Origin: Siphonodentalium dalli | Taxonomy: Eukaryota; Mollusca; Scaphopoda; Gadilida; Siphonodentaliidae | Length of the DNA: 64,000 nucleotides | Direction: 5' to 3' | Assembly (NCBI GenBank): GCA_032622095.1 | Contig: CP136066.1 | Location: 202,700,978-202,764,977 of the forward strand | Shown: positions 554-62,535 of the stretch, piece after piece | Layout: every line of letters begins with the position of its first letter | Numbering within the stretch: the stretch's first letter is position 1 | Position numbers and translations under genes: made by a program | Notes under the pieces: generated by a model | Seen by the model: the letters and a program-made list of their open reading frames with translations, nothing else | Database searches by the model: none | What the model was told of the DNA's origin: nothing

Positions 554-1382
554 AAATACTGTGTAAGCTGTGCATGTGAGGTTCTCTGGAAGTCAGAACC
601 ATTCATTTAAAAAATACAATTATTTATACCATGACTCCCTATTGTACTGTGTACAAACATGCTATATAATAAATTTGTTCTGTACACCCTACTGTGTGTG
701 AACAGGAGTACGACCGTGGGTAACACGTTTCTACTGTGGGTAACACGTTTGAATGGCATTTCAGTGGTTAAGGTTTATACCCATAGTAGAACTACATCCG
801 TGTTGACCTTTCATTAACCTTCCGTGACCTCGATCAAAATGACTCTATTTTTAAAATGTAGCGCCTCGCGATGAAAACAATTTGATACTTTCGATTCAAT
901 TGAATATTATACTCACTAATGCGATAAAAACGAACAGTTAATTCCGTGGAAATCACATCCAGATCAACAAATTGAACATATATTTCAAGAAATAGACGTA
1001 AAAATCTCGAACAACAAACGGTGAATTTCAAAATGACTTTCGTGGTTTCCTGTTGACTGTACGGCGGAGAAAAAAAGTTCCCGCAATGTGTTATATTTAT
1101 ATTCATTAAATTCGTATTCCCATATATATTCGTGTTGTTTATTTATGGCGGTTTCATTACAGTTTATTGTGAATTGGATACAATGATACCATATTCGTAC
1201 AATTGAATGTTGACCTAATTCAATGTATCAATACGCCTTATCAGCTGTGATAGTGTACGTCGATGTACGGCCAAGTGTGAGGAACACAACGGGGATGATT
1301 GTGAATGGTGCGACAGAATCATCTTAATTTAAGTGGGTTTATTTCGATTTCATAGCATTTTTTGCTCCTGTACCGGTCATGG
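554..1382. other. Non-coding; repeat tail then unique sequence
   Basis: From about 620 to 770 the text (ACCATGACTCCCTATT, then ACACCCTACTGTGTGTG) is echoed at about 1547-1660 after the second hairpin copy, so hairpin plus tail is the repeat unit. The remainder up to 1382 shows no gene or repeat that I can support. Confidence 0.5.
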
Positions 1383-1542
1383 TATAAACAAAATACAAAC
1401 GTAGTGTTTCTGAATACCAAATTTACACCACTCGTGGGATTGATGATTTACCACACTCGCTAAAGCTCGTATGGTAAATCATCAATCCCACTCGTGGTGT
1501 AAATTTGGTATTCAGAAACACTACGTGTGTATTCTATATTTA
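1383..1542. repeat. Hairpin repeat, ACCACTCGTGG family, copy 2
   Basis: A near-perfect inverted repeat: AATTTACACCACTCGTGGGA on the left is answered by its complement on the right, and the ends read AAATACAAACGTAGTG and CACTACGTGTGTATT. The stem is better preserved than in copy 1. The conserved tail follows to about 1660; 1661-1987 holds nothing recognisable. Confidence 0.8.
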
Positions 1543-1987
1543 TACCATAATTGCCTATTCTATTGTGTATATAACACGTATTTTGTAAACTTCATCTTTA
1601 CACCCTACTGTGTGTATACAGATTCCTACTATGGGTAAAAAAATCTACTGTGTGTGTAAATGTACAAACGTAATTACATGTGTTAAGTTCCTATGTCACA
1701 CTCATTTATAATTGGAGATTGTTGTGATATCAATAGGATATGAGGAAAATTGCTTGCATTTCAATCAAATGAAACATTCTAGTGTTATATGAACTAGGAA
1801 ACACATGAAAGGTAATATCAAGTAACTGATGGCTCGGAAACAGGCCGACGTCATGGTGTAACTCTGTATCATTACGCGTGACGCACATTCATTACAGCTT
1901 CGTGTTTGTGTCTCTTGTTGAGGATACACATTAATATTAAACAGCGGAGTAGTTGATTTCGCGGTACAAATCAAAAATAATAATTAT

Positions 1988-2076
1988 GGCATAAATAAAA
2001 TACACCCACAATTCCACTCGTGCATGGTGAAAATTTTATACTATATATCGGCTACTATGGGTGTATTCTATGTATA
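1988..2076. repeat. Hairpin repeat, ACCACTCGTGG family, decayed copy 3
   Basis: It keeps the left end (ATAAATAAAATACACCCAC) and the right end (TCGGCTACTATGGGTGTATT) but has lost most of the central stem. It is an internally deleted copy of the family at 396-553. Confidence 0.65.
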
Positions 2077-2147
2077 TCCTCTCCATCTTATATATTTATA
2101 TTATGCACCTGGAACAGAAATAATTTCAATCGTTATGATACAGTGCG

Positions 2148-2377
2148 CACGCCTTGAAATAGTGTCTGTCATTTGCAGAATGAGGTCCCCAGAGGGTGAA
2201 TTTAGTTATGCTACCGCTAGCATCACCAAATTCACCCTCTGGGAACCTCATTCTGCCCATGTGTAAGCAGAATGAGGTCCCCAGAGGGTGATTTTGGTGA
2301 TGCTAGCGGTAGCATCACTAAATTCACCCTCTGGGGACCTCATTCTGAAAATGACAGACACCCTATTTCAAGGCTTG
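2148..2377. mobile_element. 8-bp-TSD double-hairpin MITE, copy 1
   Basis: Two consecutive near-perfect hairpins (about 2177-2257 and 2268-2347), each with arms reading CAGAATGAGGTCCCCAGAGG and complement, are enclosed by terminal repeats GCCTTGAAATAGTGTCTGTC and complement. Related copies are at 3801-4055, 48066-48167 and 57081-57515. No target duplication is visible at this copy, whose left terminus is mutated. The open frame through it is an artefact of the palindrome. Confidence 0.85.
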
Positions 2378-2565
2378 TTTGTAAGTCCTTCAGAGTCCTT
2401 TATGTATTCCCTTAAAAAGCTTAGGTTTGTTAGAAAATAGCTGAACACAATATCAACAAAAGCACCACTGCGTGTGACGTGCAATACAAATGTTATCAAA
2501 TCAAGTAATTCTAAGTCAAATTTATTAACTTATGAAACAACTTTGGACCGAACCCATATTGAACA

Positions 2566-3725
2566 AGAGCACGCCATCGGGGCGTGGCATAATTCGCCAG
2601 TTTCTGGAGTAGAGTGGGGCAAGGTTTAATCCATTTGTTTGAAACCTTTGAATTAAGACGAAATAATAACAGAAATAAAACACAATAACTGAAGTCAGTG
2701 TGAAAACAATTTGAAAAATATTTATTTTCGGCTATTTTCAGGCAAAAAAATCCTATAACTCTGGCAAAAATGTCGAATCGGACTCAAATTCGAACTTGAC
2801 CTGCAAAATCATGTAGACAGAACGAATATTTGAACTTGATCTGTATGCCAAATTTGGTTCAGTTCCCTCGATTCAATCTAAAGTTATCATCTGGAAACCG
2901 CATACCAGGTAAAATCTAAGTCGAAAAAGAGACATAACTCAGTCAAAATCATGCGAACGAAACCCATATTCGAACTTGATTTGTATTTTGGGGTGGTAAA
3001 CTAATATACCAAATTTGGTTCAGTTCATTTGATTCAATCTAAAGTTATCATTCGGAAACCAAAAGCGGACGGACGACGGACGGGCGACGGACGGACGGAT
3101 AACCCATTTACATTATACGACCGTTTTTTTTCTCAAACGGGCGTATAAAAACCCATATTGAGAAACACGCATACCAACTTTAGCTCCGATTATATAATCC
3201 AAACCAGTGTTATCGGTTTGAAACCAAACAAACTATTATCAAACCATGCAATTTCAAAAAGGAACGTAACACTTAAGTCCAATAACTCAACAACAATTAA
3301 GAGCATCGCTTTGATGTGGGCAAAAACGCCAAATTCCTTACTTAAGTTGTGTTATTAGATGTGGTAAACATGCAGCATATAACTTTGGTCCTGATCAACA
3401 AATTAAAACTGGAGTTATCGGTCGGAAACAAAAATGTTATAAAATCGGGTAAATTTTAAGTCGAAAAAGGGCCGCAACTCATGTCAAAATAATTAGACCG
3501 AACCCATATTCAAACTTGGTTTGCATGTTTGGTTAAGAAACACACATACCAGCTTTGGTTCTGATAAAATAATCAAAATATTCGGCCTTTGGTGTAAAAA
3601 CAACAAATTCCATACTAAATACTGGTTAAAATATCAAACTATATATATCAGAAAAGAAAATTGTGTCGGCTTTTGGTCTGATATATCCAGCTACTATGTC
3701 AGGCATACAATTTCCAAATGTTAAA
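2566..3725. repeat. Composite interspersed repeat (CGGGCGTATAA-bounded), then diverged units
   Basis: 2566-3150 is colinear with the reverse complement of 55425-56030: both carry GTTTCTGGAGTAGAGTGGGG, AAACCTTTGA, AAATTTGGTTCAGTTC, CAATCTAAAGTTATCATCTG and a GGACGGACGG run, and end at CGGGCGTATAA-type sequence. 3150-3725 repeats the same phrases in a more decayed form. It is a multi-copy mollusc-style repeat with no coding potential; the mode of spread is unknown. Confidence 0.75.
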
Positions 3726-3800
3726 AATTTTGGCGACAATGAATTTGGGTGGGACACCAGTCATTACCACGTTGTCATGCATGTTGCACGTCCATGTATA

Positions 3801-4055
3801 CAAGCCTTGAAATAGGGTGTCTGTCATTTGCAGAATGAGGTCCCCAGAGGGTGAATTTAGTTATGCTACCCCGCATAGCGGGCTAGCATCACCACAATCA
3901 CCCTCTGGGAACCTCATTCTGCCGAGGTGTAAGCAGAATGAGGTCCCCAGAGGGTGAATTTGGTGATGCTAGCCCGCTATGCGGGGGTAGCATCACTAAA
4001 TTCACCCTCTGGGGACCTCATTCTGCAAATGACAGACACTCTATTTCAAGGCTTG
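3801..4055. mobile_element. 8-bp-TSD double-hairpin MITE, copy 2 (complete)
   Basis: The ends are CAAGCCTTGAAATAG and its complement. The element is flanked on both sides by the 8-bp direct repeat CATGTATA (3793-3800 and 4056-4063), which is direct evidence of transposition. Inside are two hairpins (about 3831-3922 and 3935-4026) with variable loops (CCGCATAGCGGG). The 8-bp duplication fits hAT-, P- or Merlin-type transposases, but the terminal sequence does not let me choose. Confidence 0.9.
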
Positions 4056-4159
4056 CATGTATATGAGAATACAGTGTATATAGTGAGAATAACTATTATA
4101 TGAGTAGCTGCAAATTGTGTTGGTTTACGGAATTATCAAACATTTAACCAGTACGATAG

Positions 4160-4510
4160 TAATAACTGACTTTAAAGATACATAATCCGAATTAACGCTC
4201 TTAAATTTTCTTTGGCTTCGGAGGTAAAATATATTTGATTCGAGTCGAGGAACCCGCCCATCAAATTAGCAGATTACATTTCACCACCTGGAATACTTGG
4301 CTATAACCTACCAAATAATAAGTAATAACACGTTTTGGAAAAAGTTTATATAAGGGTTGACAGTGGTTATCATTATGTTTGGGTAATTAATCGATTATGA
4401 TAACTAAAGCGTCTTATGAAGTGTTGTCGCTGCTGTTGTTGTTGTTTTGTTGTTGTTGTTGTTGTTGTAATCTGATGATATATATGGGGACCATCGAATC
4501 AGATTGTGTA
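4160..4510. repeat. Decayed fragment of the AAAGGTACTC foldback family with a (TTG)n run
   Basis: TTTCTTTGGCTTCGGAGGTA, then TTTGATTCGAGTCGAGGAAC, matches 22345-22390 and 63145-63200. At 4428-4472 a TTG repeat, followed by AATCTGATGATATATATGGG, mirrors the CAACAACAAC segment at 48325-48345 and 22300-22315. No complete terminal repeat pair is visible. Confidence 0.65.
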
Positions 4511-5471
4511 CGTTTTACTGTGGGGCTAAAACCGCTCTTAACGCGCATTACTCAACTGGCTGATCAAGCCGGTCGCAATTAACGGTATATATAGGTCAAA
4601 AACCGCCACAATCAAAAGCACATCACTCATCTGAACGATCGAATAAAATCGCTCTAATTTACCGATAGCGTGCATCACTCAGTATGGACGATCATATGAA
4701 TGGCTCGTAGAAATCTACGAACACGGAGAACTTTTAAATTAGGACCCTCTAGTGATGAAAAATCTGTCCATAGCTCCGCATCCGAATGTTTTAAAATGTG
4801 CGAAACATCGCTATTAATTAACACGAAGTCACGTTTTTGTCAAATTTGTGCATGTGGATATCTTTGACCGATCAAGGTAAATGCTGCCTGGTGCATGGTC
4901 ATTACAGTGGCCGGGCACCGTCTGGCACTGTCAGGCGTGTCTCACTTATATTTATATGTCTTATATACTTAAACGCCATGAACTGGGTTGAATAAAACAT
5001 TTTAATATTTACCTCATATAATTGAATAGCCAGTGTATTCCTTAAAAAGGTTAGTATATCATGACACGAACCATTAACAATTAGTCTGCATGACTGGCCG
5101 GATAACAATTCTGCAGGTAGTTTTGTCAACAACAATTCTGAAAATAGTCAGCATTTAATATAGCATGTCCATTCTTTTCATGCTTTTGACAATGAGCCCC
5201 GGGATTTCATGTTCAGTTCGGGCGTCATTGGCGATAAGTAGTGCTTAGTATAATCGTACCATATAAACCTATATATCAAGACAAATCTCCTTCCAGGGGG
5301 AACGACTATATAATAGAAAATAGAAATTGGATATAAAAAGACCTTTTATTATATTATTATGATTTCTTGTCAAATTATATTGAATCCTTGTTCACATAAA
5401 GAGATATAATTAGCACACCTACCATTCAGTATGGTGCATCTCTGACATGTTATAGTTGTTTGGTTTCGAGA
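4511..5471. other. No gene or repeat recognised
   Basis: AT-rich sequence with only short chance open frames. Nothing in it matched other parts of the window by eye. Confidence 0.4.
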
Positions 5472-5615
5472 GGGTTTTATTTTATTTTATTTTGTATAGT
5501 TAAAACTGGAATAGACAGGGGGTAGTAACAAATTTGCAGGAAGGTTTTTATTTTATTTTATTTTGTATAGTTAAAACTGGAATAGACAGGGGGTAGTAAC
5601 AAATTTGCAGGAAGG
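5472..5615. repeat. Exact 71-bp tandem duplication
   Basis: Two adjacent copies of a 71-bp unit containing TATAGTTAAAACTGGAATAG and ending CAGGAAGG are essentially identical. The unit carries an internal TTTTA microsatellite. This is a recent slippage or unequal-exchange event. Confidence 0.9.
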
Positions 5616-5689
5616 CATGTCGGGGTGTGTGTGTGAATGGAGGCAAAAAACAACCTCATGTTTTACAACCTCAGGCAATTTTTTTACTG

Positions 5690-6420
5690 AAGACCTTTTG
5701 TGGTTATATTTGACATTTGAAACAGTTCAAAACAGTTGGAAATAACATACCTAACACCAACATTAGTTGGAAATTTCACACCAACAATAGGTTGAAAACT
5801 TGAAATTGTTCTTGTAGTTTGATTTTCCAACAATTAATTAATGGGGAATTTGATGTTTTTAGACCAACATTTCCATATTTTCCTGCTTTCGGTAAACATT
5901 TTACTGAAATGTCCATCAGCTGGAATTTTCCAACCTTAGGGCGGGTGTCAGGTTGGAAATCTCCAACACTTGGAAAGCTTGAGGCCATTCTTGGTGATAG
6001 GATTTTTACGGTTGACAGACGGAGCCAGAGGGAGGAACATAATCCACCGGGCTGATTGCAGAAATACTCTAGTCGTATAGTCTATAGTCGTATAGCTGCA
6101 GTCAAATTCACGGTGCGAGACGATTTTAAAATCTGAACATGAAAATCACAAAATCCTATATCACCCAGACTGGCCTCAAGCTTTCCAAGTGTTGGAAATT
6201 TCCAACCTGACACCCCACTAAGGTTGGAAAATTTCAAACTGATTACCATTTCAGTCAAATATTTTGACCAAATTGCAATATTAGGAAAATATTGTTTTCT
6301 TAAATTATAAATAGCTCTTTCTGACTAGCCACGGGGGAGGAACGAGCATACAAGCTTTCCAAGTGTTGGGAGAAATTACCAACCTCACCCCCCCCCCCCC
6401 ATGGCCATTCAGTTAAATGT
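5690..6420. repeat. TTGGAAATTTCCAAC interspersed repeat, both orientations
   Basis: Segments such as CAACAATAGGTTGAA, TAGACCAACATTTCCATATT and GGTGTCAGGTTGGAAAT recur inverted at 6170-6250 and 6350-6380, and again at 33740-33955 and 52280-52350. A C-run lies at about 6387. It is an old interspersed repeat with no coding signature. 6421-6759 shows nothing recognisable. Confidence 0.65.
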
Positions 6421-6759
6421 TGGCCAAAAGTAGGAAAATATGCCAAATTTTGGTCTAAAAACAACAAAAGTTCAAACTAATGTTGTGTTATGTACCTACC
6501 CCCTCCCCTTGTCACCAGGTCCCCGGAGGTAGGTGTGCGTATTTCGCAAGACGAGCACCTAAATATATATATATATCTTTATTCCTCCATATAATGAAGA
6601 GCATATATATAAACATCTATATCTATATTTGCGAATGTCTGTCTGTGTTCTATAGAAATTCACAGGGGACCATCTAGATGATGCCAAAGAGGTCTACTAT
6701 GAGTAACTTTTTACGAGAAAGATAATGGTCGGGGTTAAAATTTTCTAAAGTGACGCCGT

Positions 6760-7484
6760 TGTTGTCAGGGGCAGAAAAGGGGGAGGGGCAGAAAAAAAAA
6801 TTGTCGGCGATTGCCACGAAACTTATATATAATCATCCCCATACTATGAGGAATCTAATGGTGTGTTTTAAATATGGCAAAAGTCGCGCCGTTCGCGTCA
6901 GGGGTGCCCGGAAGGGAGAGGGGCAGAATTGTTTTCTGTCGCCGATTGCCACGAAACTTACATATAATCATCCCCATGATATGAAGAATCCAACGGTGTG
7001 GTTTAAATATGTCAAAAGTGGCGTCGTTCGAGTCAGATTTGCACGAATGGGGAGAGGGGCACCAAAATTGATAAAACTAATTTTAGCGCCGATTTCCACC
7101 AAATTGATATATATTCTTCTTCATGATACAAGGAATCTAATTGTGCGATTTAACAACGCCAAATTGTTGTCGTTTGGATAAGAGATTGGGAGGGGGTGGG
7201 CACTAAATTTGATAATAATTGGTTTAGTCGCCGATTGCCACCACACTTAAACAAAAGCATCCCCATGGTATGATGAGTCTAATGGTGTGGCTTATATCTG
7301 TCAAGTGTGGCCTCATTCGAATCAGGGGTGTATTGAAAGGGACAGGGGCACCAAAATTGATGCACAATTTTTTTGGCGCCAATTTCCACCAAATTGATAC
7401 ACGTTCTTATCCATGATACGAGGAATCTGATCGTGTGATTTAAAGACGCCATATATAGTGGTGCTGTTTAGGTGAGAGATGGGG
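6760..7484. repeat. Diverged tandem repeat, about 140 bp, five units
   Basis: Each unit contains a GGGGCA(C/G)-start, a CGCCGATT(G/T)CCAC block, a CATCCCCATGATATGA-type block and a GTGGTTTAAATATG-type block. Units begin near 6786, 6919, 7056, 7197 and 7345. Two related units lie at 12700-13010. The last unit is cut at 7485 by the left end of the foldback element. Confidence 0.75.
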
Positions 7485-8499
7485 ATGCAACTTTATTTTG
7501 TATATTAAATGATCATTGGAGCAATTAAATATGCAATTATTGGGGTCCTAACCCCTTCCGATCCCTCAAAAATTCGATTTTACAGAACGCAGTACAAAAT
7601 TTTACAAAAAATCACAATTGGGATTCTAGTCATATTTCAACAAGAAATGAAAAGGAACATTGTAATGTAAGTGAGGCATATCATTACCTATGAATATTCC
7701 AAATCTCTGGAACCATAAATATTACCTTGGCTCAAAATGGCTGCGAAAATGGCCGCCAAAATATGGAAAATGGTAAATATTGCCCCAGGGTGTCCTGCAA
7801 TCGCTTACAAGTTGTGGTTGATGTACACAATTGGCTAATCTGTTTTCTATACATCGCATACTAACATGTCTGATGCACCATGGATCATTTTTACTATTGT
7901 CACCACTGACATCACCAGAAATATTGGATTTTTCTCTCACAAACTTGACATAAATATCGGCAAAAATTCACTTTTCAGGGTTGGACCATTTGTTCAAGTA
8001 ACATGTAACTATCTTTGGATTGAAAGGTGTTTATTGTTTTGGTCTATCTTAAATGTGTCACACTACGGTGTTTATAGACTAAATTGCTCAAGATGGCTTC
8101 CAAAATGGCAACCAAATTTGTTAAAAGTTAAAGTATCCCGAACATTATTCTCTGCGTTATCCGAAAAAGGTGGCAAATTGTGACTCACTTGGTTATTGTA
8201 CGTGTTAGTTACAATGTAATTAACTGACAACTACGTTCTATTATGTTTGTCTCAGTTCCGTATGGGGCATGACAAATTCATTTTAAAGTTGCAGTATGGA
8301 ATTTTGCGGAGAACCTCTTTTGTGATTCTGGCCATATTATTGAAAGGAAATGGGCAGAACTTTGAGACGGAACTGAGATGAACCATGATATGTGGGTATT
8401 CTGACCCATTATGATAAAAATTTATCAACTGGATGCAGGGTGGAAGCCAAGATGACAGCCAGGGAGTTACTCTATGATAATAGATGAGGATAATAGGTA

Positions 8500-9106
8500 G
8501 TAGATAATACAGGGAGTTATTGTATGGTCATGAATGATGTGTGGGTATATATGGAGTGCCCTGTTGGTAACGGTGGGACGTATATTTATATATGTTGTGG
8601 ATGTGTTATCATTGGTGGTGTATGGGGAGTAGATTTATTATCATGGATGGCGTGTATGAGTATGGCAAGTATGGAACTTATGAGTGGTCGTATGTGCGGA
8701 TATTGGTATATCTGGAAGGGCACGCCATTGGTGGTGTGCATACGTATACCTGGATTGACTCCATGGTCATGGGTATGGCGAATATGTATACACGTAGTGG
8801 CTGTATGGTCCATGGTGAGGTGAATATGTATACAATGAGTGACTGTATGATCGTGAATGTAGTGAATATGTATACATACAGTGACTATATGTGTCGGTGT
8901 AGGTGTATACCCGGTGTTCAAGCATGGTGACTCGTGGCTGTATCGTCATTTGTGGTATGTACGGGTATAACCAAGTATGGCTGTATGATCAGGTGTACTA
9001 GTACATGTACGTGTATAAAGTGGGTGACTATGTTGTCATTTGTGTGGTGGTGTTTATGTACATATGGAGTGACTGGAGTAATGGGTGGGTTGTACATGTG
9101 TACCTT
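8500..9106 (+). repeat. Minisatellite, about 40 bp, left arm of the foldback
   Basis: Degenerate units built from GAATATGTATAC, AGTGACTGTATG and TCATGG alternate about every 36-41 bp. The same units in the complementary orientation fill 9192-10850. All open frames here are products of the repeat. Confidence 0.8.
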
Positions 9107-9191
9107 GGGTGGCTATCGCTTTCCACAATAACTCAATGATATGTTAATCAATAGAGAGGTCATGTCATATCGTGGAAAGCGATAGCCACCC
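9107..9191. repeat. Central 20-bp perfect hairpin of the foldback
   Basis: GGGTGGCTATCGCTTTCCAC at 9107-9126 is matched by its exact complement at 9172-9191 with a 45-base loop. It marks the switch in orientation of the minisatellite and is much better preserved than the outer arms. Confidence 0.9.
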
Positions 9192-10850
9192 ATTAGCACA
9201 CAGTCATTACATATATACATAAACACCACAGCCATTACAATATAGTGACCCACTGACTACATGTACACCTGACCCATGACCACGGGTGACCATACAGCCA
9301 CGCATCACAGTGCAGGCACACCGGGTATACTCCAAAACATGACCCATAACCATATAGTCACTCATTGTATACCCATTCATCTCACCATTGGCCACAAGGT
9401 CATCCCCTGTATACCTATTCTCCAAACGCATGGTCAAATAGTCAATCAATATATACATCAACACCACAACAATGACCATAAAGTCACTCCGGTATACATA
9501 TGCACATCACCAATGGCCATATAGCCACTCGCTTCATACACATACCCTCACCCATGTTACCTGGTATATTCCTTCACCTGACCTGTGGCCATATAGTCAC
9601 CCCGTGTGTACCTATTCAAAACATTCATACACGATCATGGTCAATCCTTGTATATATATTCACCTCAACATTGGCCATGTCAATCCCTGTATCCCTATTT
9701 GTCACACCATAGCCGAATAGCCACTCAAGATATACTAATACACACAGCCATGTCAGTATAGTCACTCCATGTATGCATATGCACCTCATCCATGGCCATA
9801 TAGCCACTCGCTATATACACATATCCCTCGCCCATGGCAATAAAGCAACACGTGTGTGTACTGGTATAACCTACACGTGATGATACCGAGACGAGTCACC
9901 AAACAAGAACACCAGGTGCATGTATACTCATACGCCTGTCACCCCCTGTATAGCTGTTCATTACATTTATGATCAGACTGTCACTACTTGTATACCTACA
10001 TGTACTCATATCACCATTAACCATACAGTCACTACCTGTATACCTATTCGACACACATAGTCATATAACCACTCGATATACATATGCAGCCCACCCTAGA
10101 CCATAGATTCACTCCAGGTATACATGTAAACCTCAGTAATGCCCATTCAGCCCTTCCAGATATACAAAAAATATACGACCACTCAAACAATCCATACTTG
10201 CATATACACCTCACACATGACAATTCAGCAATTCACTGTATAATCATACACGCCATCCATGATAATACAACTAAGCCCTATACACCCACCAATGATAATA
10301 CATCCACGAGATATATAAATATACATCCCACCCGTTACCACAAGGACACTCCCTATGTACCCACACGCTCGATAATGTCCACCCAGCTTAATCCAGGTAT
10401 TCATATTCAATCATGACCGTACAGTCATTCCATGTATACCTATACACATTACCCGTAACCATAAAATCACTACCTATTTATCCACACACCCCATCCATGA
10501 TCATACAGACAACACATGTACATCCCACCCATGACCTTACAGTCACTCCATATATACATAATCAACACATAGATGACCATGTAGCTATATCCATACACCA
10601 CACCAATGACCGGGTGCACCCGTGCTGGATATACACAATCATACACCATACAGTCACTACATGCATACCGATTCACCCCACACCTGACCATGACCTCTCC
10701 CTGTATACCTAGATGCATCTTACCATGGACAACTCACTCATAACCATATAGTCACTCATTGTATACCTACTCACATCAGTCATGACATACAATAACTCCC
10801 TGTATACCTATTCACCTCACATATGATCACAGAGTAACTCCCTGGCTACG
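9192..10850 (-). repeat. Minisatellite, about 40 bp, right arm of the foldback
   Basis: Units of the form CCATATAGTCACTC, GTATACCTATTCACC, CATGACC recur about every 36-41 bp, for example near 9472, 9513 and 9585. They are complementary to the left-arm array but extend about 2.7 times further, so copy number has drifted after the palindrome formed. Confidence 0.8.
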
Positions 10851-11796
10851 GTCTTGGCATCCACACTGTATCCTGTTGACATTTTTTTTTATCATAATGG
10901 ACCAGAATAGCCAAAGATTATGGTCCATCTCAGTTCTGTCTCAAAGTTCTGCCCACTTTCTTTCAATAAATATGGCCAAAATCACAAAAGAGGTTCTCGG
11001 CAAAATTACATACTTTAAAATGAATTTGTCATGCCCCATACGGAACTGGGACAACTGGGAATAGAACATGTAGTTGTTAGTTAATTAACTAACACGTGTA
11101 ATAACCAAGTGAGTTACAATTTGCTACCTTTTCGGATAATGCAGAGAATGTTCGGGATATATGTAAAAAATTACTATTTTACATATTTGGTTGCCATTTT
11201 GGAAGCCATCTTGAGCAATTTGGTCTATAAACACCGTAGTGTGACACATTTATGATAGACCAAAACAATAAACACCTTTCAATCCAAAGATAGTTATATT
11301 TTACGTGAAAAAATGGTCCAAACCTGAAAACTGAATTTTTGCCAATATTTATGTCAAGTTTGTGAGAGAAAAGTCCAATATTTTTGACGATGTCAGTGGT
11401 GAAAATAGTAACAATTAACCATGGTGCATCAGACATGTTAGTATTCAATGTATATAATGCAGAATAGCCAATTGTGTACATCAACACAACTTGTAAGCGA
11501 TTGCAGGACACGCAGGTGTAATATTTACCATTTTCCATATTTTGGCGGCCATATTGGCAGCCATTTTGAGCCAAAGTAAGAATTTTTGTTCCAGTAATTT
11601 GGAATAATCATAGGTAATGATATGCCTCACTTACATTACAAAGTTCTGTTCATTTATTGTTGAAATATGTGAAATTTTATACCGCATTCTGTACAATCGA
11701 ATTTTTGAGGGATCGGAAAGGGTTAGGACCCCAATAATTGCATATTTAATTGCTCCAATGATCATTTAATATACAAAACACAAAATAAAGTTGCAT

Positions 11797-12229
11797 TACT
11801 CAAACAGTTCCAAACAGCATGAATTGATCTAGAAGATATTTGTGAAAAAATGTCATATTTTCAACTTCTGGCGGTCATTTTGGTGGCCATCTTGGATGGT
11901 GAGTTTCAATTTTGGCCCATAAAAGTGTCATTATGTCTTATCTTCACGAAAATATATACATTTATATACATTTTACAAGATTTTCCAGCTATAATTTTCA
12001 TAAAAATGGCTCACTTATAGTTCTAGAAAATGGATCGGGTTGTGGGGGGGGGGGGGGGTACAAGTCTCGTTATTATCAGAAAACGACATGAATATATATT
12101 TCGTAAGTTGATCGTATCGATTTGGGGATGTATTGGTTGTAATAGTGCAACGTTCCATGGGTGTGCGCGCATACACACACGTTGGACGAATGCAGTCATG
12201 TAAATAAAAGTGATTTTTTACGTTTGAGG
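11797..12229. other. Non-coding with a long G-run
   Basis: The first part has repeat-like text (GGCGGTCATTTTGGTGGCCA). A G homopolymer lies at about 12042-12058. No gene seen. Confidence 0.4.
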
Positions 12230-12660
12230 GGTGACCCGATGACCCCCTTCTTGACTTAAAACCCCAGGAAAAGTTGCTTCTTAAGTTGTGTTTTTATAAT
12301 TAGTATATATCAAAGTACTTTGAGACCAAAAATTATGGATGTACGCGAAAGTGTAAAAAAAAAAGAGTGAAAAATCACGTTTTGGGGTTCAGCATGGGAC
12401 CCCCTTTCTTATCTGAAAACCCCAGGAAAAACCCTTTCTTAAGTTGTGTTTTCTTAATCAGTACACTTAGGAGTATCATCAAACCAAAATTCATCGATGT
12501 ACGCAGAAGTGTAAATAGAAGTGATTTTTGGCACTTTTTGGGGTTCAGCGGCCCCTAGACCCCAGGAATGCGCAACTTAAGAAATCGTTTTTTCAGAATG
12601 TTCCATTATTGGTACCAACTTTAGGGGGTCAAACCTTTTGTACGCAAAAGTGTAAATAGA
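12230..12660. repeat. Diverged tandem repeat, about 150 bp, three units
   Basis: Each unit carries GACCCC, AAACCCCAGGAAAA, CTTAAGTTGTG and GTACGC.AAAGTGTAAATAGA-type blocks. Units start near 12235, 12380 and 12530. No protein-like conservation is seen between units. Confidence 0.7.
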
Positions 12661-12699
12661 ACATATGCGGGCTCCCTAACTATTAGTGTGTGCAGCTTG

Positions 12700-13010
12700 A
12701 GTCCGAAATAGGGACGGGAGGGTCACCAAAAACTGATACAAAATATTTTTAGTACCAATTACCATCAAATTCAAACACGTTCTTCTCAAATGATACAAGA
12801 AATCAAATTGTGCTGTCTGTCTGTCTTTCTGTATGTCTGTGTGTTCTATATATAACTTCACGCGGTACAATCGAAGAGGCAAAAGCTGATACAAATATAC
12901 TTGGCACTAATTTCCAACAAATTCATACATGTTTTTATCTAATGATATACCATGAATTAAGTCACATTTGGTGTCGTTTGCGTCACGGATGGCGAGCGGA
13001 TGTGCACTAT
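12700..13010. repeat. Two decayed units related to the 6760-7484 tandem repeat
   Basis: CACCAAAAACTGATACAAAA, TACCATCAAATTCA and ATGATACAAGAAATC match the 7056-7440 units. They lie on the far side of the foldback element at 7485-11796. A short CTGT run is at 12813-12842. Confidence 0.6.
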
Positions 13011-14073
13011 CATAGATAAGATTGCTATTCGACGATATCCACATATAAGTTATATATAGTCACCCAGGCCATCTCCATATCATTTTAAGATTTGGGCATT
13101 CACATTTCACGATCCAGACAAATGGTAATCCACTTATAAGTCACTTGAACAATTATATCTTCTTAATTGTCATATTTATATGGGGATGGCAATCAGGACA
13201 TTCACACAATGAGCTATGAAAAAGAGATACATAGAAGAAGCTTAAACGTATATTTATCATTCTATTGAAGAGATACATATATTCGTGCAAACTGAGAGAC
13301 CTCGAACCGTCAGAGGATTGCATATATATATTATAACAAAATTGAGTCTGTTCCATTCAATACAGTTTCCACAAAAAAAGTTACAATTTGTCAGGATATA
13401 TTGAAGGCCTGTTCAAAAATAGTGGTCACAGTGTGCAGCCATATATAGTTTCTTCTGATATACAATAAAATGCAGTTAGTAGCACATGACTTTTCAGGAT
13501 CCTCCCAATACTGACAACTGACAAGGGGTTTAGAACAGACTCATCGACTGACATAAACAACTCAAAATCTCGCTCTGTGTCTGGCAAATGTAGCTGATAT
13601 GCACGCGCAGCAACATTTCGATGAAACTGAGAATATTTAGCCAATATATAGCACCATAAACAGAGGAGCATCTGGAAATTTCTTGAAAACATCTGTATCT
13701 ACATGGATGTATCATCGAGATCTTAGTCCAACCCACTAGATTGATTGATACATCTCAATATGTAAAACCCAATTGTCATCTTTTATTTGTGCGAACTAAT
13801 GTCTTTGTGATGTCCATGTATCATATTATAACGTCTGACGTACACGCAGTTGTAAATAAATAAATACTTCATTATTGGTGGAACGGATTAATCGCGATAA
13901 ACAGAATGACAATTGACAAGGTGGGCCACTACTTATATTCCATGACTGTAATAATCATGTTTTGTGATGCTATTTGAATATACAATTTATGAGAAAACGT
14001 ATAACACATTGAACAAGAGTGTTCTCTATTCCCAACAAATATCCACAGCATACAGACGATTTCACATCGCATT
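13011..14073. other. No gene recognised
   Basis: A minus-strand open frame at 13426-13692 shows no known domain, and neighbouring frames are broken. I see no repeat match within the window. Confidence 0.4.
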
Positions 14074-24458: not shown

Positions 24459-25930
24459 TTAATTTTCTTGATGCCAATTTGATAAAAATGATAAAATTTT
24501 CAGTAATAGTTGATTTTCCAAAGATAATAGTCTTTCGAATTTTTCTTTCGTAGGATTCTCCCAGTAATATTTCGGGATATAGTCTGCTCGAATTATCTGT
24601 AGTTCTTTGCAAATAATAATAAAATGGTATTCATCACCCGTGCCATCACCGCAAATATCACAGGTTTTGTCACCATTATCCACAGATTTAGATTTCCATC
24701 TTGTATATTCGACAGGCAGTTTTATATTTGCGGTTCTAAATTTTAGCAAAATGTTTGCTAAGTGAGCCGGTAAGAAACTTAGATAGCGACCCATTCCCGG
24801 CCTCGTTTTAATACTCATATAAAAACGTGCTCTAGATGAGTTTGCATTCTGCATTTCAGTAAATAGTTCTGTTGTGTGTCGCTCAATAAGCTCTGTTTTT
24901 ATATTTCTAATTTCAGCCTTTGTTAAACCTGACTGATTTGTCCATGCTCTTTCTATGTTAAGTTCTTTCAGTGTTTTAGAAATAAAAAATAGCCATGGGC
25001 TATTGAAGGAGCCATCATAATTGTGATCCAATTCTTTAACAAGAATATATATATTTTTTTGCAAGTTCTGAGCCATCGTGTGATAGTAGTTTGGACCAGT
25101 AAGATAGTGCTCTGCACTTTATCTCAATGGACAGAGGGTGTCTGCCAAATTCACCGTAAACCATATAATTTGGTGTACTTGTTTTCAGATATCCTATAAT
25201 TTTGCAGTATTTAAGATGAAGCGATTCAATAATTTTAGTTCTTTCGTGACACCAAATTTCACTCCCATATAATAGGATGGGTACTATCATACAGTCAAAT
25301 AGTTTTAACATAATATCGATTGGAAGCTTGAGAGATCTCACTTTGTTTAGTAATCCATACATTGCTCTTGTGCCAATTGTAACTATTATTTTTTTAATTT
25401 TGGCAAAATCTTCTATTGTAAAAAAAGGTTACTCCCAAATATACAAATTCTTTAACTGTCTCGAGTTCTTGACCTCGATATCTGAACGTTGGAATTGGTT
25501 TGGGTAACTTATTACTAAATATTATGACTTTAGATTTTTTTGTATTCACTTGTATCTTCGAAGCATCTGCATAATCTGCAAATGCTTGGAGAGAACGGTG
25601 CATATTTTCTTCTGTATCAGACATTAATACTGTGTCATCTGCATAAAGAATACAAAACAATTTTATGTAACATCCCACATTTTCAATATATAGTTCATCT
25701 AAATAACTCAAATTTTGTATTGCACAATCATTCATAAAATCTTGGATGTCGTTAATGTACAAGGAAAATAAAAAAGGTGACATTATTTCCCCTTGAAAAA
25801 GTCCCACATTACTAACAAAAAAGTCTGAAATGTTGTGACTGTCTTTTACACATGTTTTTATCTTACCGTACATATTTCTAATGACATTAAGTATTTTTCC
25901 GTTGATATTGCATTGGGCTAATTTCAGCCA
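24459..25930 (-). pseudogene. 5'-truncated non-LTR retrotransposon with RT core (LINE B)
   Basis: On the minus strand three overlapping frames reconstruct the C-terminal half of a LINE ORF2. The first (to 25394) contains the RT motifs VGLFQGEIMSPFLFSLYIND and LYADDT (YADD at 25634-25645). The second (25362-25036) has LFDCMIVPILLYGSEIW. The third (25076-24459) ends in a C-x2-C...H-x4-C zinc-binding tail (CDICGDGTGDEYHFIIIC). The two frame changes lie in a 7-T and a 7-A run, so either indels in homopolymers or sequencing errors explain them. The endonuclease and the RT N-terminus are absent. Better preserved than LINE A and related to it. Confidence 0.9.
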
Positions 25931-26739
25931 TGTGGTAACTGGACGCAGTCCACCTGATCGCGCCTCTTTGTCCATGCAGATCAGAAAACTCCAGACAGAG
26001 TTATCTCCCATCGCTCCGCTGAGATACATAATATCATAGATGAAGGAAGGATAGATACGTCACTCAACGTTATTTGATCGGCCAATCGGTAACGCACTCA
26101 GATTCGGTCCGCCATTGCTAAAGGTAGTTCAACTCCGATTCTTCTAACCAAAACAGTGCTTTCTCATCGCAATAAAAAGAGGAAAATCTGGCGTCTATAA
26201 TGCAGCTGAATTAATTATACACCAACTGTCATGAATTATCAGAATCTCACGTTTCAAAGGGTGTCCGTTGGGGAGTAAGAAAGGTGAGTTTTTATGCCGT
26301 TTGAGACAATTATTGTAGTAAACAACACGACATTCTGCATTCTATTTTTGTCACTTTCACGTGGATGAAGTTATGTTATAACGACTTTCGAAATGAGATT
26401 AATTTAATAGATCTCACCAATCCTGGTTGCATTGGTAATTTGAATATCATGTATACGGGGTACCGATCCAGACTTGTTTTATGGAAGGAATATTTCAATG
26501 ACAGCTGTCAGATGTCAAGAATTTCCATGTCACTGCCAGGTGTGATCAGGTGTACTACAAATAATTTAATAAATGAATAGTTAATAAAACAATTCACAAA
26601 TTGGGCAGTTTAGATGTCCTACTCCTGGATTCTAATTGTAGTGATCATACTATTCATAGTTTGAATTGTTTCATGTCCCCTTTATGTAATAGATAACATT
26701 TGTTGATAACATATTTTTCATATACCGTAGTCTTTTGAT
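25931..26739. other. No gene recognised
   Basis: The sequence upstream of the truncated LINE B has no recognisable endonuclease part. Short frames have no domain. Confidence 0.4.
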
Positions 26740-27535
26740 CATTACTGACTGACTGACATACTGACTGACATGACATACTGACTGACTGACATGAATGACT
26801 GACATGAATGACTGACACGAATGACTGACATGAATGACTGACATACTGACTGACATGACATACTGACTTACATACTGACTGACTGACATGAATGACTGAC
26901 ATACTGACTTGACTGACATACTGACATACTGACTGACTGACATGACTAACTGACATGAATGACTGGCATGCATGACTGACATACTGACTGACATGACATA
27001 TTGACTGACATACTGACTGACATGACTAACTGACATGAATGAATGACTGACATACTGACTGACATGGATGACTGACACGAATGGCTGACTGACTGACATG
27101 ACATACTGACTGACATACTGACTGACATGACATACTGACTGACAGACTGCCATGAATGACTGACTGGTCTGACTGACTGACATGAATGACTGACATGAAT
27201 GACTGACATACTGACTGACTGGACTGACTGACATACTGACTAACTGACATGACATACTGACTGACTGACATGAATGATTGACATACTGACTGACTGACAC
27301 ACTGACTGACATGAATGACTGACACACTGACTGACATGAATGACTGACATACTGACTGACATACTGACTGACTGACATACTGACTGACATGACTGACTTA
27401 CATGACTGACAGACCTGACTGACAGACATGACTGACAGGCCTGACTGACAGACCTGACTGACATGACTGACCTGACAGACCTGACAGACATGACTGACTG
27501 ACATGACTGACATACATGACTGACATGACGGACGG
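26740..27535. repeat. Satellite of TGACTGACATAC / TGACATGAATGAC units
   Basis: About 800 bp built almost only from ACTGACAT-type words of 8-13 bases. Long open frames in all three minus frames (Met-Ser-Val-Ser and His-Val-Ser-Gln repeats) are created by the repeat and are not genes. Confidence 0.95.
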
Positions 27536-27735
27536 ACCCTGATGGATGGATCCTATCTGCCCCAGATGGATGGATGGATCATACCTGTCCCAGATGGATG
27601 GATGGATCCTACATTGTATCTGTCGCAGATGGATGGCTGGATCCTACCTGTCCCAGATGGATGCATGGATCCTATCTGTCCCAGATGGATGGATGGATCC
27701 TATCTGTCCCAGATGGATGGATGGATGGAGTGTTG
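27536..27735. repeat. 28-bp minisatellite
   Basis: Units of CAGATGGATGGATGGATCCT plus ATCTGTCC are repeated about seven times with minor changes. It directly abuts the satellite on its left and the 205-bp array on its right. Confidence 0.95.
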
Positions 27736-28560: not shown

Positions 28561-29030
28561 GTACCGACGATATTTGATGAGATTGCAAAATATAGGGGGA
28601 GGGTAAGCTTAATGAGAATAACTTATAAATATTAAATCACAAAGCATAATGCTTTGTAATAAACAAACCAAGCATACATTTTTCTACCTAACAAACCATA
28701 CCGCATCCATTTTCGATGTACGGTCTCCAAGTTATGACAATTTTTACTCCGATTCTGACGCGAAATGGCAATTTGGTGTTTTGGCTATACTTTTCAACAC
28801 CATATACTGAGCATATAGCCTTAAATATCCTTGCGTTTTGCCTAGGAGGGTGTATCCCAATGCAAATTGAACTGATTTGTGATGAATATCGTCTTTTCAA
28901 GCGATGTGTGAGGTTTATTTTCATCCTGTGTTCTGACTAAGTTTTATGATATCGGATACTTCACTATATATTTGTCTTAAACATCTTGTCTTGCAGTATA
29001 TCATTCCCACAATGAATTTCTCAAGTTAAA

Positions 29031-29534
29031 TTATATTGCATGTGTATATATGTCTTCATGTAACTTTTGTATATATATATATTGTACCATAATGGTCTCC
29101 ATATTTGGAGGAATAAACATATCTCTCTCAAGAGCCTCTGGCTCACCACCTGTCAGAGTAGAGTTTATGACCTCGTCAGTTTCATAAAATTCACTACATA
29201 TAATATCACCTGTTTCTTGAACACAATCACAAAGTTCGGACAAAATGTTTGAATTTAAGTTTTCAAATTCTAATTCAGAATCTGATTTATATAAAGGTTT
29301 ATGTATTAACTTTTCAGAATCCTGTGAATTCTGATTGAGAAATTCTGATTTTGAATTAAGACTATCACTTGAGAGTGATGCTGTTGGTTCATTACTAATT
29401 TGATTTGATTGAGATTCATTTGAAATCACATCTCTGTGTCCATTTGCCTGTGAATTATTCAGCAAGTATTGAGGATAAAACATGTTGCCAATGGATTTAA
29501 CTCTGTGAAATTTGAAATGGGCTTGTCTAGTCAT
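29031..29534 (-). CDS. Gag-position open frame of a DIRS-like element (left arm copy)
   Basis: An open frame of about 167 residues from the first ATG (MTRQAHFKFHRVKSIG...). It is rich in Ser, Asn and acidic residues and has no recognised domain. In the other arm the same frame precedes a DIRS-like reverse transcriptase, so it probably represents the Gag-like ORF or leader of that element. This copy is intact while the right-arm copy is broken by a 37-base deletion. Function unknown. Confidence 0.4.
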   Translation of the reverse strand: MTRQAHFKFHRVKSIGNMFYPQYLLNNSQANGHRDVISNESQSNQISNEPTASLSSDSLNSKSEFLNQNSQDSEKLIHKPLYKSDSELEFENLNSNILSELCDCVQETGDIICSEFYETDEVINSTLTGGEPEALERDMFIPPNMETIMVQYIYIQKLHEDIYTHAI

Positions 29535-29993
29535 CTTTGCGTGGTAAATGGACAGGCAAGTGAACACTCAGGGTGAGTTACTTTCTCTTTCTTTTCTTTA
29601 TCTTGAACACATCATTGCATTGTGCATCTGATTCTGTCTCTCTGGATTATTTTCGACTCACGCATGTTGCACACGTAACTTTCTGACCCACCAATGTTAT
29701 GGAACTGTTGCCATTATCTGTCCACTTCATGAAAGGCTGAAATGATACAGAATTTGAAGCATTTAATTTTAATTTATAAATAATTTACATAATAATGATT
29801 TATTCTCATGACACATGACAGATGCGTATGGAGATTAACATAACTTATATACAAAAATTGGTAACAAGTATATATATATACAATATGTACAAATGTATGG
29901 CGGCATTGGAGATCATGTAGTTACGATTAGAATATTATATGTACTCGAAATGTTTAATACGTATCAAATACTAAATAGTTCAGATGGTATATG

Positions 29994-30237
29994 TCAACCA
30001 GGCGGATTTTCGTCGAACCTCTTAAAAATGGTATGTATAAATTTGCATAGACGCCGTATTTGGCATGGGTTTTGTACATTGAGAAGTTCATCCATTGTTG
30101 TAATGTTTGGTCTATTCAGGTATTCTTTTGATATATGACATTTTCTCTCGCGCTCAAGCGCTTCACATTCAAATAGGTAATGGAATTCGTCTCCTAGTCT
30201 GTTATATCTACATAGCGGGCTACTGGTATACATACAG
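29994..30237 (-). pseudogene. LINE 3' tail with zinc-binding motif (left copy)
   Basis: The minus-strand translation includes PLCRYNRLGDEFHYLFECEA, the C-x-N...DEFHYLFEC pattern of the C-terminal zinc-binding region of non-LTR retrotransposons, followed by a stop at ENPPG. Only about 80 residues of the ORF are present, so it is a severely 5'-truncated copy. It lies immediately inside the inner edge of the inverted duplication. Confidence 0.75.
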
Positions 30238-30247
30238 GTTACTGGTA

Positions 30248-30836: not shown

Positions 30837-30846
30837 TACCAGTAAC

Positions 30847-31090
30847 CTGTATGTATACCAGTAGCCCGCTATGTAGATATAACAGACTAGGAGACGAATT
30901 CCATTACCTATTTGAATGTGAAGCGCTTGAGCGCGAGAGAAAATGTCATATATCAAAAGAATACCTGAATAGACCAAACATTACAACAATGGATGAACTT
31001 CTCAATGTACAAAACCCATGCCAAATACGGCGTCTATGCAAATTTATACATACCATTTTTAAGAGGTTCGACGAAAATCCGCCTGGTTGA
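30847..31090 (+). pseudogene. LINE 3' tail with zinc-binding motif (right copy)
   Basis: The plus-strand partner of 29994-30237; the protein sequence is the same over the compared length, including GDEFHYLFECEALE. A stop follows ENPPG. It is an inactive 5'-truncated tail. Confidence 0.75.
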
Positions 31091-31549
31091 CATATACCAT
31101 CTGAACTATTTAGTATTGGATACGTATTAAACATTTCGAGTACATATAATATTCTAATCGTAACTACATGATCTCCAATGCCGCCATACATTTGTACATA
31201 TTGTATATATATATACTTGTTACCAATTTTTGTATATAAGTTATGTTAATCTCCATACGCATCTGTCATGTGTCATGAGAATAAATCATTATTATGTAAA
31301 TTATTTATAAATTAAAATTAAATGCTTCAAATTCTGTATCATTTCAGCCTTTCATGAAGTGGACAGATAATGGCAACAGTTCCATAACATTGGTGGGTCA
31401 GAAAGTTACGTGTGCAACATGCGTGAGTCGAAAATAATCCAGAGAGACAGAATCAGATGCACAATGCAATGATGTGTTCAAGATAGAGAAAAGAAAGAGA
31501 AAGTAACCCACCCTGAGTGTTCACTTGCCTGTCCATTTACCACGCAAAG

Positions 31550-32016
31550 ATGACTAGACAAGCCCATTTCAAATTTCACAGAGTTAAATCCATTGGCAAC
31601 ATGTTTTATCCTCAATACTTGCTGAATAATAATCTCAATCAAATCAAATTAGTAATGAACCAACAGCATCACTCTCAAGTGATAGTCTTAATTCAAAATC
31701 AGAATTTCTCAATCAGAATTCACAGGATTCTGAAAAGTTAATACATAAACCTTTATATAAATCAGATTCTGAATTAGAATTTGAAAACTTAAATTCAAAC
31801 ATTTTGTCCGAACTTTGTGATTGTGTTCAAGAAACAGGTGATATTATATGTAGTGAATTTTATGAAACTGACGAGGTCATAAACTCTACTCTGACAGGTG
31901 GTGAGCCAGAGGCTCTTGAGAGAGATATGTTTATTCCTCCAAATATGGAGACCATTATGGTACAATATATATATATACAAAAGTTACATGAAGACATATA
32001 TACACATGCAATATAA
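31550..32016 (+). pseudogene. Gag-position frame, broken by a 37-base deletion (right arm copy)
   Basis: It starts like the left-arm frame (MTRQAHFKFHRVKSIG) but after LLNN a 37-base deletion shifts the frame. The original frame resumes about 31750 (ELCDCVQETGDIICSEF) and ends at 32016. The deletion postdates the duplication or was lost only from this arm. Confidence 0.6.
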
Positions 32017-32291
32017 TTTAACTTGAGAAATTCATTGTGGGAATGATATACTGCAAGACAAGATGTTTAAGACAAATATATAGTGAAGTATCCGATATCA
32101 TAAAACTTAGTCAGAACACAGGATGAAAATAAACCTCACACATCGCTTGAAAAGACGATATTCATCACAAATCAGTTCAATTTGCATTGGGATACACCCT
32201 CCTAGGCAAAACGCAAGGAATGTATCGCTATTCATGCTGTCAAGAAAGGTAAAAGTTTCAATTCCAAATATGTCAATCAGTGAATACCAAA

Positions 32292-33479
32292 ATGTGTTCC
32301 GTACCATCTGTGCAAACTCGGATGTACACTCGAGATATCTATGAAACAAGAAATTCTATACTCAGATCAGGGAAATATAATTTTGAAGAATGTCAATTAC
32401 CAGTGGAGAGCCATTTAAACATAGAAAAAATTAAAGATATGTTGTTGTATTATGAAGACAGTGAACTTTGTCAGTTACTTGAATATGGTTTTCCAATTAG
32501 CTTTGTTAAACCTCAACATATTGTAAACCAGGCAGTCAAAAATCATAAAGGCGCCCGGGAATTTCAGTCATATATGGATTCTTACATAAGCAAGGAGCTT
32601 GAATCAGGATCTATCGTTGGACCATTTCATTCTAATCCTTTCAATTGTGGTATTAATATTAACCCATTAAATACAGTGCCAAAGAACAATGTCTTGGAAA
32701 GGCGCACAATAATGGATTTAAGTTTTCCAAAGGGAAATTCTGTCAATGAAGGTGTCCCCAAAGACATGTATCTTGGGAAACATGTCAAAGTTAAGTTTCC
32801 TTCTGTGGACAACCTTGTAGAATTAATCAAGTTAAAAGGGAGGTCTTCATTACTCTTTCAAGTGGACTTATCCCGGGCTTATAGACAAATATATTTAGAC
32901 CCGGGGGACATTCACTTAGTAGCATTTAAACGGAAAGACAAAATTTATTGTGATCTTGTTTTGAGCATGGGTCTCCGATCAGCCGATTATCTATGTCAAC
33001 GTGTTACTAACGCTGTAGCTTATTCTTGCAAATCCATAGGGTGCAGCATAGTAAACTACATTGACGACCTTGCAGGGGTAGATACGCCAGAGCGGGCAGA
33101 GCAATCCTTTCAGAACTTGCGTGAGGTACTGTTTAATTGGGGCTTGACCGAGTCTATTCACAAGGCTTGTCCACCTTCCACGAAAATGGTCTTTCTAGGT
33201 ATTGGTTTTGACACGGTCGAGCTAACTCTCCAAATTACAGAAGAAAGGCTGAAAGAAATAATTGATCTAGTGAATAATTGGTTATATAAGGAGTCAGCCT
33301 TCTTAAAGGAAGTTCAATCTCTAATTGGTAAATTAAATTTTGTATCCTCTTGTGTACGGCCTGGGGTCAATACTATGAAACTTTTTCTTTGTAAGAATCT
33401 ACAATTGTTTGTAAGAAATAACAATTTATCATTCCGCCAATACTATGAACCTACGATTACAAACATAAATCACAAATAG
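32292..33479 (+). pseudogene. DIRS-like (tyrosine-recombinase) retrotransposon reverse transcriptase, 3'-truncated
   Basis: The first ATG in the frame is 32292 (the frame opens at a GTG, 32280). The product is about 395 residues. Signature blocks appear in order: NHKGAREF, GPFHSNPFN, VPKNN...RRTIMDLSFPKG, FQVDLSRAYRQIYLDPGD, LSMGLRSADYLCQRV, VNYIDDL with the catalytic YIDD (codons near 33057), then KMVFLGIGFDT and KEVQSLIGKLNFVSSCVRPG. This set is characteristic of DIRS/Ngaro RTs rather than LINE or Gypsy RTs. RNase H, methyltransferase and tyrosine recombinase, which should follow, are missing: similarity ends near 33400 and the frame stops at 33479. The RT core itself is open with no internal stop. 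Confidence 0.9.
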
Positions 33480-36050: not shown

Positions 36051-36634
36051 ATTTCCTTAGTCATATAGCGGTGAATATTAAAGAGCGTCCCTAAATAAAT
36101 GCTTTATTCTTATTCTAACCGTATGATTACTATATACACGTTCGCCGCGGATTTAGTTTAAATTCAGGAGTCGTGCTATTTTTCGCTCATTTTAGTTTTA
36201 AATTCGCGCACCGACGGATGCGCGAAAAATTAATTTAAATCGAGCAAGGTGTGCCTATCCGTAAAATGTTTTTTTTTTTTTTTTTTTGCAGATGAGTTTC
36301 TTTTGAAAAAAACGTATTTTGATCTACATTGTAATATCTTTTGATAATTATGAACATTTTTGTCCAGAGTGTGTGCCTTATATGGCCTACTGTCTGGTAA
36401 TTTGATTCTCAATGTTTATTGATAACTTGATACGGTAAATAAATATAATTCCACAGCGCCGTATAGCAGAAAAATGAGTTCTCCCCGAGATGATTGACAG
36501 GCTGTGTGTGTCCGTCAATGATTGTCGTTTAGAAGCAGCCAATTGTGCACGCGGGTTTGGCATGTTCTCGTTTTGTTAACCGTAAATCCTTTGTGTTCAT
36601 TTTTGAGCATATAACAATCATAAATCGTGTCATA
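36051..36634 (+). promoter_or_regulatory. Upstream region and probable 5' UTR of CREBZF
   Basis: A poly-T run lies at 36270-36287 and a partial palindrome (AATTCGCGCA...TGCGCGAAAAATT) at about 36200-36230. A CCAAT pentamer sits at 36539-36543, about 90 bases before the start codon, next to GTGCACGCG. No TATA box was found at a sensible distance. The reading frame is open upstream to 36545 but contains no earlier ATG. Promoter assignment is inference from position. Confidence 0.4.
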
Positions 36635-39626: not shown

Positions 39627-39862
39627 GTATTCTCTTATATATGCGAGGCGACCTATGGTCGACTCGCATATATAAGAGAATGCATTGGCCTAAAAAAAAT
39701 TCTTTAACAATTTTTCTAATATTTTTCTACATTCTTTGACAATTTTATCAGTTTTAATTTGTGTTAAGCCAATGCATTCTCTTATATATGCGAGGCGACC
39801 TATGGTCGACTCGCATATATAAGAGAATGCATTGGCACAGGGCCGTTCTGTTGGGTAAAGGG
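39627..39862. mobile_element. piggyBac-like double-hairpin MITE, 5'-truncated copy
   Basis: It ends TGTTGGGTAAAGGG followed by TTAA (39863-39866), as in the complete copies at 56619 and 62536. It retains the second 69-bp hairpin (39768-39836) and most of the first (about 39627-39689), built on CTCTTATATATGCGAGGCGA. The left terminus CCCTTTACCCAACA is missing. Confidence 0.85.
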
Positions 39863-48065: not shown

Positions 48066-48167
48066 TGGTGAATTTGGTGATGCTAGCCCACTGTGAGGGA
48101 TAGTGTAACTAATTTCACCCTCTGGAAACCTCATTCTGCAAATGACAGGCACACTAAACTCAGGCTT
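48066..48167. mobile_element. 8-bp-TSD double-hairpin MITE, right-half fragment
   Basis: GTGAATTTGGTGATGCTAGC to CTCATTCTGCAAATGACAGG, ending CAGGCTTG. This is the second hairpin and right end of the 3801-type element, with a decayed left arm. The left half is absent. Confidence 0.75.
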
Positions 48168-48279
48168 GCTTGGTCTAGTTTATATCAGTTTGATTCACTT
48201 AAATAAGTACAAAATAAAACTTTTCAGTATTCAAGGATACAATGTATCTATTAATATTATTGGGTTGTGGCAAGGAATT

Positions 48280-57010: not shown

Positions 57011-57080
57011 TTAAACACTCATTGACGAGTAGTAATCCCTCAGGAAATGTTCATATAATAAGTTCAACAGACAACCACGT

Positions 57081-62510: not shown

Positions 62511-62535
62511 TTTCATTGCTGGCATGTAGCTTTAA

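Follow-up and report, generated by a model that had tools for sequence, protein, structure and literature searches.

The window analysed here is a 64-kb stretch of DNA (C6 202700978-202764977) from a genome of 2.23 Gb in nine contigs. It contains a left-truncated copy of a dispersed, nearly palindromic element, whose parts and immediate surroundings are arranged as follows (positions are those of the window).

6712..7484, + strand: left flank, a diverged tandem array of ~135-148-bp units
7485..12682, + strand: the window's copy of the element, left-truncated, 97.5% identical to positions 853-6097 of another copy (locus L063)
7485..8459, + strand: left inner arm, beginning inside the element at family position ~879; array boundary approximate
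8460..9105, + strand: left array, its degenerate units repeating about every 42 bp; boundaries approximate
9106..9192, no strand: central hairpin, a 21-bp perfect stem (9106-9126 / 9172-9192) with a 45-bp loop
9193..10850, - strand: right array, the left array's unit in opposite orientation; boundaries approximate
10851..11796, - strand: right inner arm; array boundary approximate
11797..12682, - strand: right outer arm (outer TIR), whose left counterpart is absent in the window copy
12639..12661, + strand: outermost subterminal motif TGTACGCAAAAGTGTAAATAGAA, also at 12498-12520 and 12340-12362
12662..12682, - strand: true right end, CATATGCGGGCTCCCTAACTA
12683..12685, no strand: TTA, presumed right half of a 3-bp target duplication whose left half is lost
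12710..12812, + strand: right-side unit of the left-flank array, 77% identical to 7338-7435

Comparison of the window with itself recovered an inverted pair, 7485-8558 and 10753-11796, with 84% identity over 1098 columns, in agreement with the inverted arms of the original prediction. The opposite-facing arrays, described there as built of about 40-bp units, were also recovered, with 42 bp as the top autocorrelation period in both. The perfect hairpin expected between them is present, its stem being 21 bp long rather than 20 bp, and equally good folding was obtained in 0/200 shuffles. The sequence ATGCAACTTTATTTTG does lie at the arm edges (7485-7500, with its complement at 11781-11796 and zero mismatches), but it does not have the role of element end that it had been given, since in other copies the homology goes on outward at both edges and ends about 0.88 kb further out.

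Several other repeats and frames share the window. The element had been taken for the largest single structure present, yet by arm length it is exceeded by an inverted repeat at 28810-30247 / 30837-32238, with 1.44-kb arms that are 97% identical. A reverse-transcriptase frame at 32253-33479 (RVT_1), with named relatives from Mytilus, adjoins this repeat, and the two perhaps form a DIRS-like element. A third long inverted repeat occupies 58763-59716 / 60092-61070 (arms 80% identical). One repeat family consists of short MITE-like palindromes at 2148-2377, 3798-4058, 48067-48172 and 57081-57515, and a second palindromic family, with a core of ~61-69 bp, lies at 39629-39843, 46781-47153, 56761-57014 and 62532-62924. 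A 488-codon frame at 36533-37999 (+) has a weak bZIP match and resembles animal CREB/ATF bZIP proteins; broken reverse-transcriptase frames cover 24459-26059 (-), with RVT_1 in 25397-26059, and a low-complexity ACTG/ACATG array of ~190 4-bp units spans 26744-27537. The bZIP frame and the Mytilus relatives of the reverse transcriptase point to an animal source, perhaps a mollusc. Rfam and ARAGORN found nothing on the 64-kb window, and the left arm had no match in a phage collection. Single occurrences of ATGCAACTTTATTTTG in each of 52 viral-contig stretches were judged to be chance, the element matching none of them at E 1e-3.

A genome search with the left arm gave 4158 candidates, of which 40 were scored; one of these is the window itself, and the other 39 scored matches are 95-98% identical. 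We retrieved 20 stretches, which account for 21 of these 39 matches, and every one (20/20) contains the element, whole or in large part, with main blocks 93-99% identical. The element extends to the window's 11796-side ATGCAACTTTATTTTG boundary in 15/20 stretches, and in those 15 conservation persists directly beyond ATGCAACTTTATTTTG, the sequences on the two sides matching each other in inverted orientation. An outer-arm counterpart lies to the left of the element at all 20 loci, ending ~886-890 bp out, while on the right the homology ends at 886-889 of the window flank in most copies and sooner in L064 and L077. The element terminates in TAGTTRGGGAGCCCGCATATG and the complement of this sequence, the left end being present at 20/20 loci and the right one at 15/20, with the terminal consensus TAGTTRGGG. 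The element is therefore about 6.1 kb long, opens with TAGTTRGGGAGCCCGCATATG and is a near-palindrome throughout, ordered from the outside in as outer TIR, inner arm, opposed ~42-bp arrays and central 21-bp hairpin. This revises the anatomy first proposed, in that the real ends are TAGTTRGGGAGCCCGC and the window copy has lost its left outer arm, for which reason the internal ATGCAACTTTATTTTG was mistaken for a terminus. The missing arm may have been removed by a deletion running from the flanking array into the element.

The exact 21-base end occurs 946 times genome-wide (458 forward and 488 reverse), against 0 + 0 for a backwards control. Among the first 100 ends listed, all on C1, 35 adjacent facing pairs lie within 15 kb of each other, 21 of them at a spacing of 5.7-6.2 kb, with extremes of 1.17 and 10.9 kb. 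Together, the end counts and the pair spacing suggest hundreds of copies at least; the original prediction, which was to fall if no further copy with the same ends existed in the genome, stands in this respect.

Target duplications, whose presence the original prediction had left to be established, were found at the outer ends. Among the 20 fetched loci, 14 of the 15 both-ended copies are flanked by an exact 3-bp duplication and 0/15 by one of 4-10 bp; L062, L064, L067, L071 and L077, with no recognisable right end, were left out of this count. As a control, mispaired flanks of these first 15 copies agree at 3 bp in 8.6%. The remaining 18 matches were fetched as short end pieces, and both ends were visible in 13, the pairs L085, L087, L095, L109 and L115 being set aside with one or both ends absent. 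An exact 3-bp duplication was detected in 11/13 by script and in 12/13 by reading, the difference being L107, which counts as exact once a 2-bp insertion in the end motif is allowed for on visual inspection. In total, 26/28 both-ended copies carry an exact, AT-rich 3-bp duplication, the two with unequal 3-bp flanks being L069 and L091/L092. Three empty sites, uninterrupted relatives of target sites, point in the same direction: the joined flanks of L079 match L063 1970-2175 at 82%, clean over the junction, and those of L073 and L080 match window 13541-13743 (84%) and L062 7446-7664 (85%), respectively, matches that likewise run across the junction but have a gap of 1-2 bp close to it.

Long inverted repeats are known to trap assemblers, but an assembly or inverted-duplication artefact, produced by a hairpin read or by one local rearrangement, has practically no probability here, as the same arrangement is seen on each of the nine contigs sampled, with differing flanks and 3-bp duplications, the window arms are only 84% identical, and the target duplications and empty sites of other copies oppose an assembly join as the origin of the structure, the second outcome by which the original prediction was to fall. 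It is also very improbable that the stretch 7485-11796 (4.3 kb), with ATGCAACTTTATTTTG at its ends, constitutes the mobile unit. Exactly such a layout is visible in the window, and L073 has a junction inside this 16-bp sequence as well; however, the sequence outside the 16-mer is conserved across the 15 copies compared, the left outer arm is present at 20/20 loci, and the target duplications sit at the outer ends. The window junction (7485) is a truncation and that of L073 (~3947, oriented) a head-to-tail partial duplication; their shared position may reflect chance or a fragile spot.

To describe the family as a whole, we used 14 full copies of 5.63-6.15 kb that can be aligned end to end, which are pairwise 95.6-99.3% identical and lie 1.0-2.9% from the majority sequence. 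Arrays and hairpin loop are inherited with few changes, the loop being conserved in all 14. A profile of the repeat unit, for which these same array units served as the training set, was run on L063 at a threshold of 8 bits. It scored 28 units in the right array and, within the 539 bp supplied of the left array, 6, the two arrays being in opposed orientation; at that threshold it scored none on the opposite strand of the arrays and none in 1 kb of unique arm.

The two arms of the element have distinct histories along their length. In a tree, all 14 left arms form one group, separate from all 14 right arms, and in the inner part left arms of different copies are more alike than the two arms of one copy. 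Majority left and right sequences differ at 13/960 columns outside and at 96/935 over the next 960 positions, so that the arms diverge by 1.4% over the outer 0.96 kb and by ~10% over the inner kilobase. The first 900 bp contain a single fixed left-right difference and positions 900-1900 contain 58; a further 76 at 1900-2000, a stretch in which the array starts and the alignment is loose, were set aside. Since the same arm differences are found in all 14 full copies, whole copies appear to have multiplied from an already asymmetric ancestor, in which the outer arms had become alike beforehand.

The likeness of the outer arms might instead have been kept by selection for transposase recognition, an explanation we consider unlikely. 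The outer 0.96 kb does carry a 23-bp subterminal motif three times per arm (in L063, at spacings of 141-155 bp and with 0-3 mismatches, the copy nearest the terminus lying ~21 bp from it). Against selection, left-left identity is 0.981, 0.981 and 0.966 in three outer stretches versus 0.976 and 0.974 in inner ones, and arm divergence rises fairly sharply near 960 bp. As the outer arm varies between copies about as much as the inner, arm-to-arm conversion is favoured, and the outer 0.96 kb was probably made alike by conversion before amplification.

The longest stop-free frame in the 14 full copies is 160 codons. The original prediction had looked to a full-length relative with a transposase; we sought one among five Harbinger loci and the copies of unusual length on C1, and found none. 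The odd-length C1 pairs L122 and L123, considered as possible autonomous copies, are deleted derivatives, L122 measuring 1.17 kb end to end with its CAA/CAA duplication retained, as read from the letters. The 8.9 kb seen of the 10.9-kb pair (L124) matches the element until an unrelated stretch begins at 4622, and has no frame >153 codons. Middle pieces of three shorter pairs (L125-L127) are ordinary family sequence. Within such sequence, L127 has a 232-codon stop-free stretch; the 42-bp unit keeps frame, so this stretch is possibly array-borne.

PIF/Harbinger duplications are typically 3-bp TWA, those of Academ are 3-4 bp, and CACTA/EnSpm elements end in CACTA or CACTG, unlike the TAGTTRGGG termini seen here, which set the element apart from that group. 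A Harbinger/PHIS transposase, whose genes are abundant here and whose duplications are short and often 3 bp, is a conceivable partner, although we would not favour it. A search with PF13359 yielded 150 scored among 910 candidates, many with open frames >400 codons, and the middle base of the element's duplications is A or T in 26/26. However, only 7/26 duplications read TAA or TTA, the form typical of Harbinger, and the TAGTTRGGGAGCCCGC ends are absent from the five multi-copy Harbinger loci read, of 150 listed. Two 3-mismatch matches to the 14-base end motif in Harbinger loci (L119, L120) and G-run matches in another such locus (L118) were judged to be chance. A model for ISAzo13/Zator (PF07592) gave no match, but the controls were likewise silent.

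Duplications of 4-10 bp, which would place the element with Mutator (MULE) foldbacks, are seen in 0/15 copies versus 14/15 at 3 bp, and 7-bp duplications as in the P superfamily (Galileo) likewise in 0/15. Mutator duplications are given as 4-10 bp, those of Zator as 3 bp and those of the PHIS group as 0-4 bp in the available portion of one survey (PMC10045372), so that Zator and PHIS remain candidates. Enzymes of the Harbinger-related (PHIS), Zator or Academ kind would fit an AT-rich target of 3 bp better than those of Mutator or P. The present element has inverted repeats making up most of its length, internal tandem repeats, dispersed copies and target duplications, and is, as predicted, a foldback-type non-autonomous DNA transposon, outside Mutator and P by duplication length.

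Known foldbacks share parts of this architecture. TU of sea urchin and FB of Drosophila have modular inverted repeats with tandem arrays, as here when compared by description, and longer target duplications than the 3 bp found here. Both are named in a study of Tetris, the accessible text of which states that most foldbacks seem to be members of Mutator, with exceptions such as Galileo (P) (PMC4079207). The Mutator-type foldbacks Tm1 and Muta1, as far as their available descriptions go, also have long inverted repeats, but duplications in that group are 4-10 bp (PMC10045372, portion available) rather than 3 bp.

Closest in layout, judging from the parts of the sources at hand, are Tetris of Drosophila virilis (PMC4079207) and Galileo (PMC3573991, PMC3688188). 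Like the present element, Tetris is non-autonomous and has long TIRs that comprise three domains, an outer flanking one, one of tandem repeats and an inner one, and the accessible text reports that its authors found no autonomous copy (PMC4079207). It differs in its 8-10 bp duplications and ~220-bp repeats (here 3 bp and ~42-bp units) and in that only three structurally complete copies of it were found (PMC4079207; here 946 exact ends); in the present element, moreover, the arrays reach a central hairpin. Galileo, of the P superfamily, similarly has long, internally repetitive TIRs and transposase-less, TIR-only copies; by description, its duplications are 7 bp and its TIRs reach ~1.25 kb in D. 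mojavensis, compared with 3 bp and ~2-kb arms plus arrays here (available parts of PMC3573991 and PMC3688188). According to the same texts, the tandem repeats of Galileo bind the THAP domain (PMC3573991, PMC3688188), and extra binding sites are documented in its long repetitive TIRs (PMC3688188). A literature search, with Repbase and Dfam outside its scope, turned up no element recognisable as the 6.1-kb one.

Taken together, we conclude with a probability of roughly 0.88 that the structure in the window is a copy, truncated on the left, of a foldback-type DNA transposon of ~6.1 kb that has no transposase frame in the copies read and likely moves by cut-and-paste through an outside transposase recognising its TAGTTRGGGAGCCCGC ends. 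The lack of a transposase gene in the copies read, the 946 ends and the 3-bp duplications together suggest that it spread by means of a borrowed transposase. Read most simply, the hairpin marks the seam left when a half-element was duplicated in inverted orientation, an event that would also explain why the transposase gene is absent. After this single duplication, the arms would have diverged, conversion would then have reset the outer ~0.96 kb, and one asymmetric palindrome would subsequently have been amplified in trans. The transposase from elsewhere would bind the ends, excise the element and insert it with a 3-bp stagger, and the repeated subterminal motifs, perhaps also the arrays, are predicted to be extra transposase-binding sites. 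More tentatively, this foldback family may have originated within a superfamily that makes 3-bp duplications and is distinct from Mutator and P, and it may spread as a frozen asymmetric 6-kb palindrome, with its outer 0.96 kb reset by arm conversion, its inner arms and arrays drifting, and its arrays and subterminal motifs acting as a reservoir of sites for the transposase.

If a young and abundant family makes 3-bp duplications, giant palindromes of this layout must also arise in another lineage and still be moving there at high copy number. The differences between its left and right arms provide a built-in record of TIR homogenisation, and inversions, deletions and palindrome stability can be studied on the 6-kb palindromes that it supplies by the hundred.
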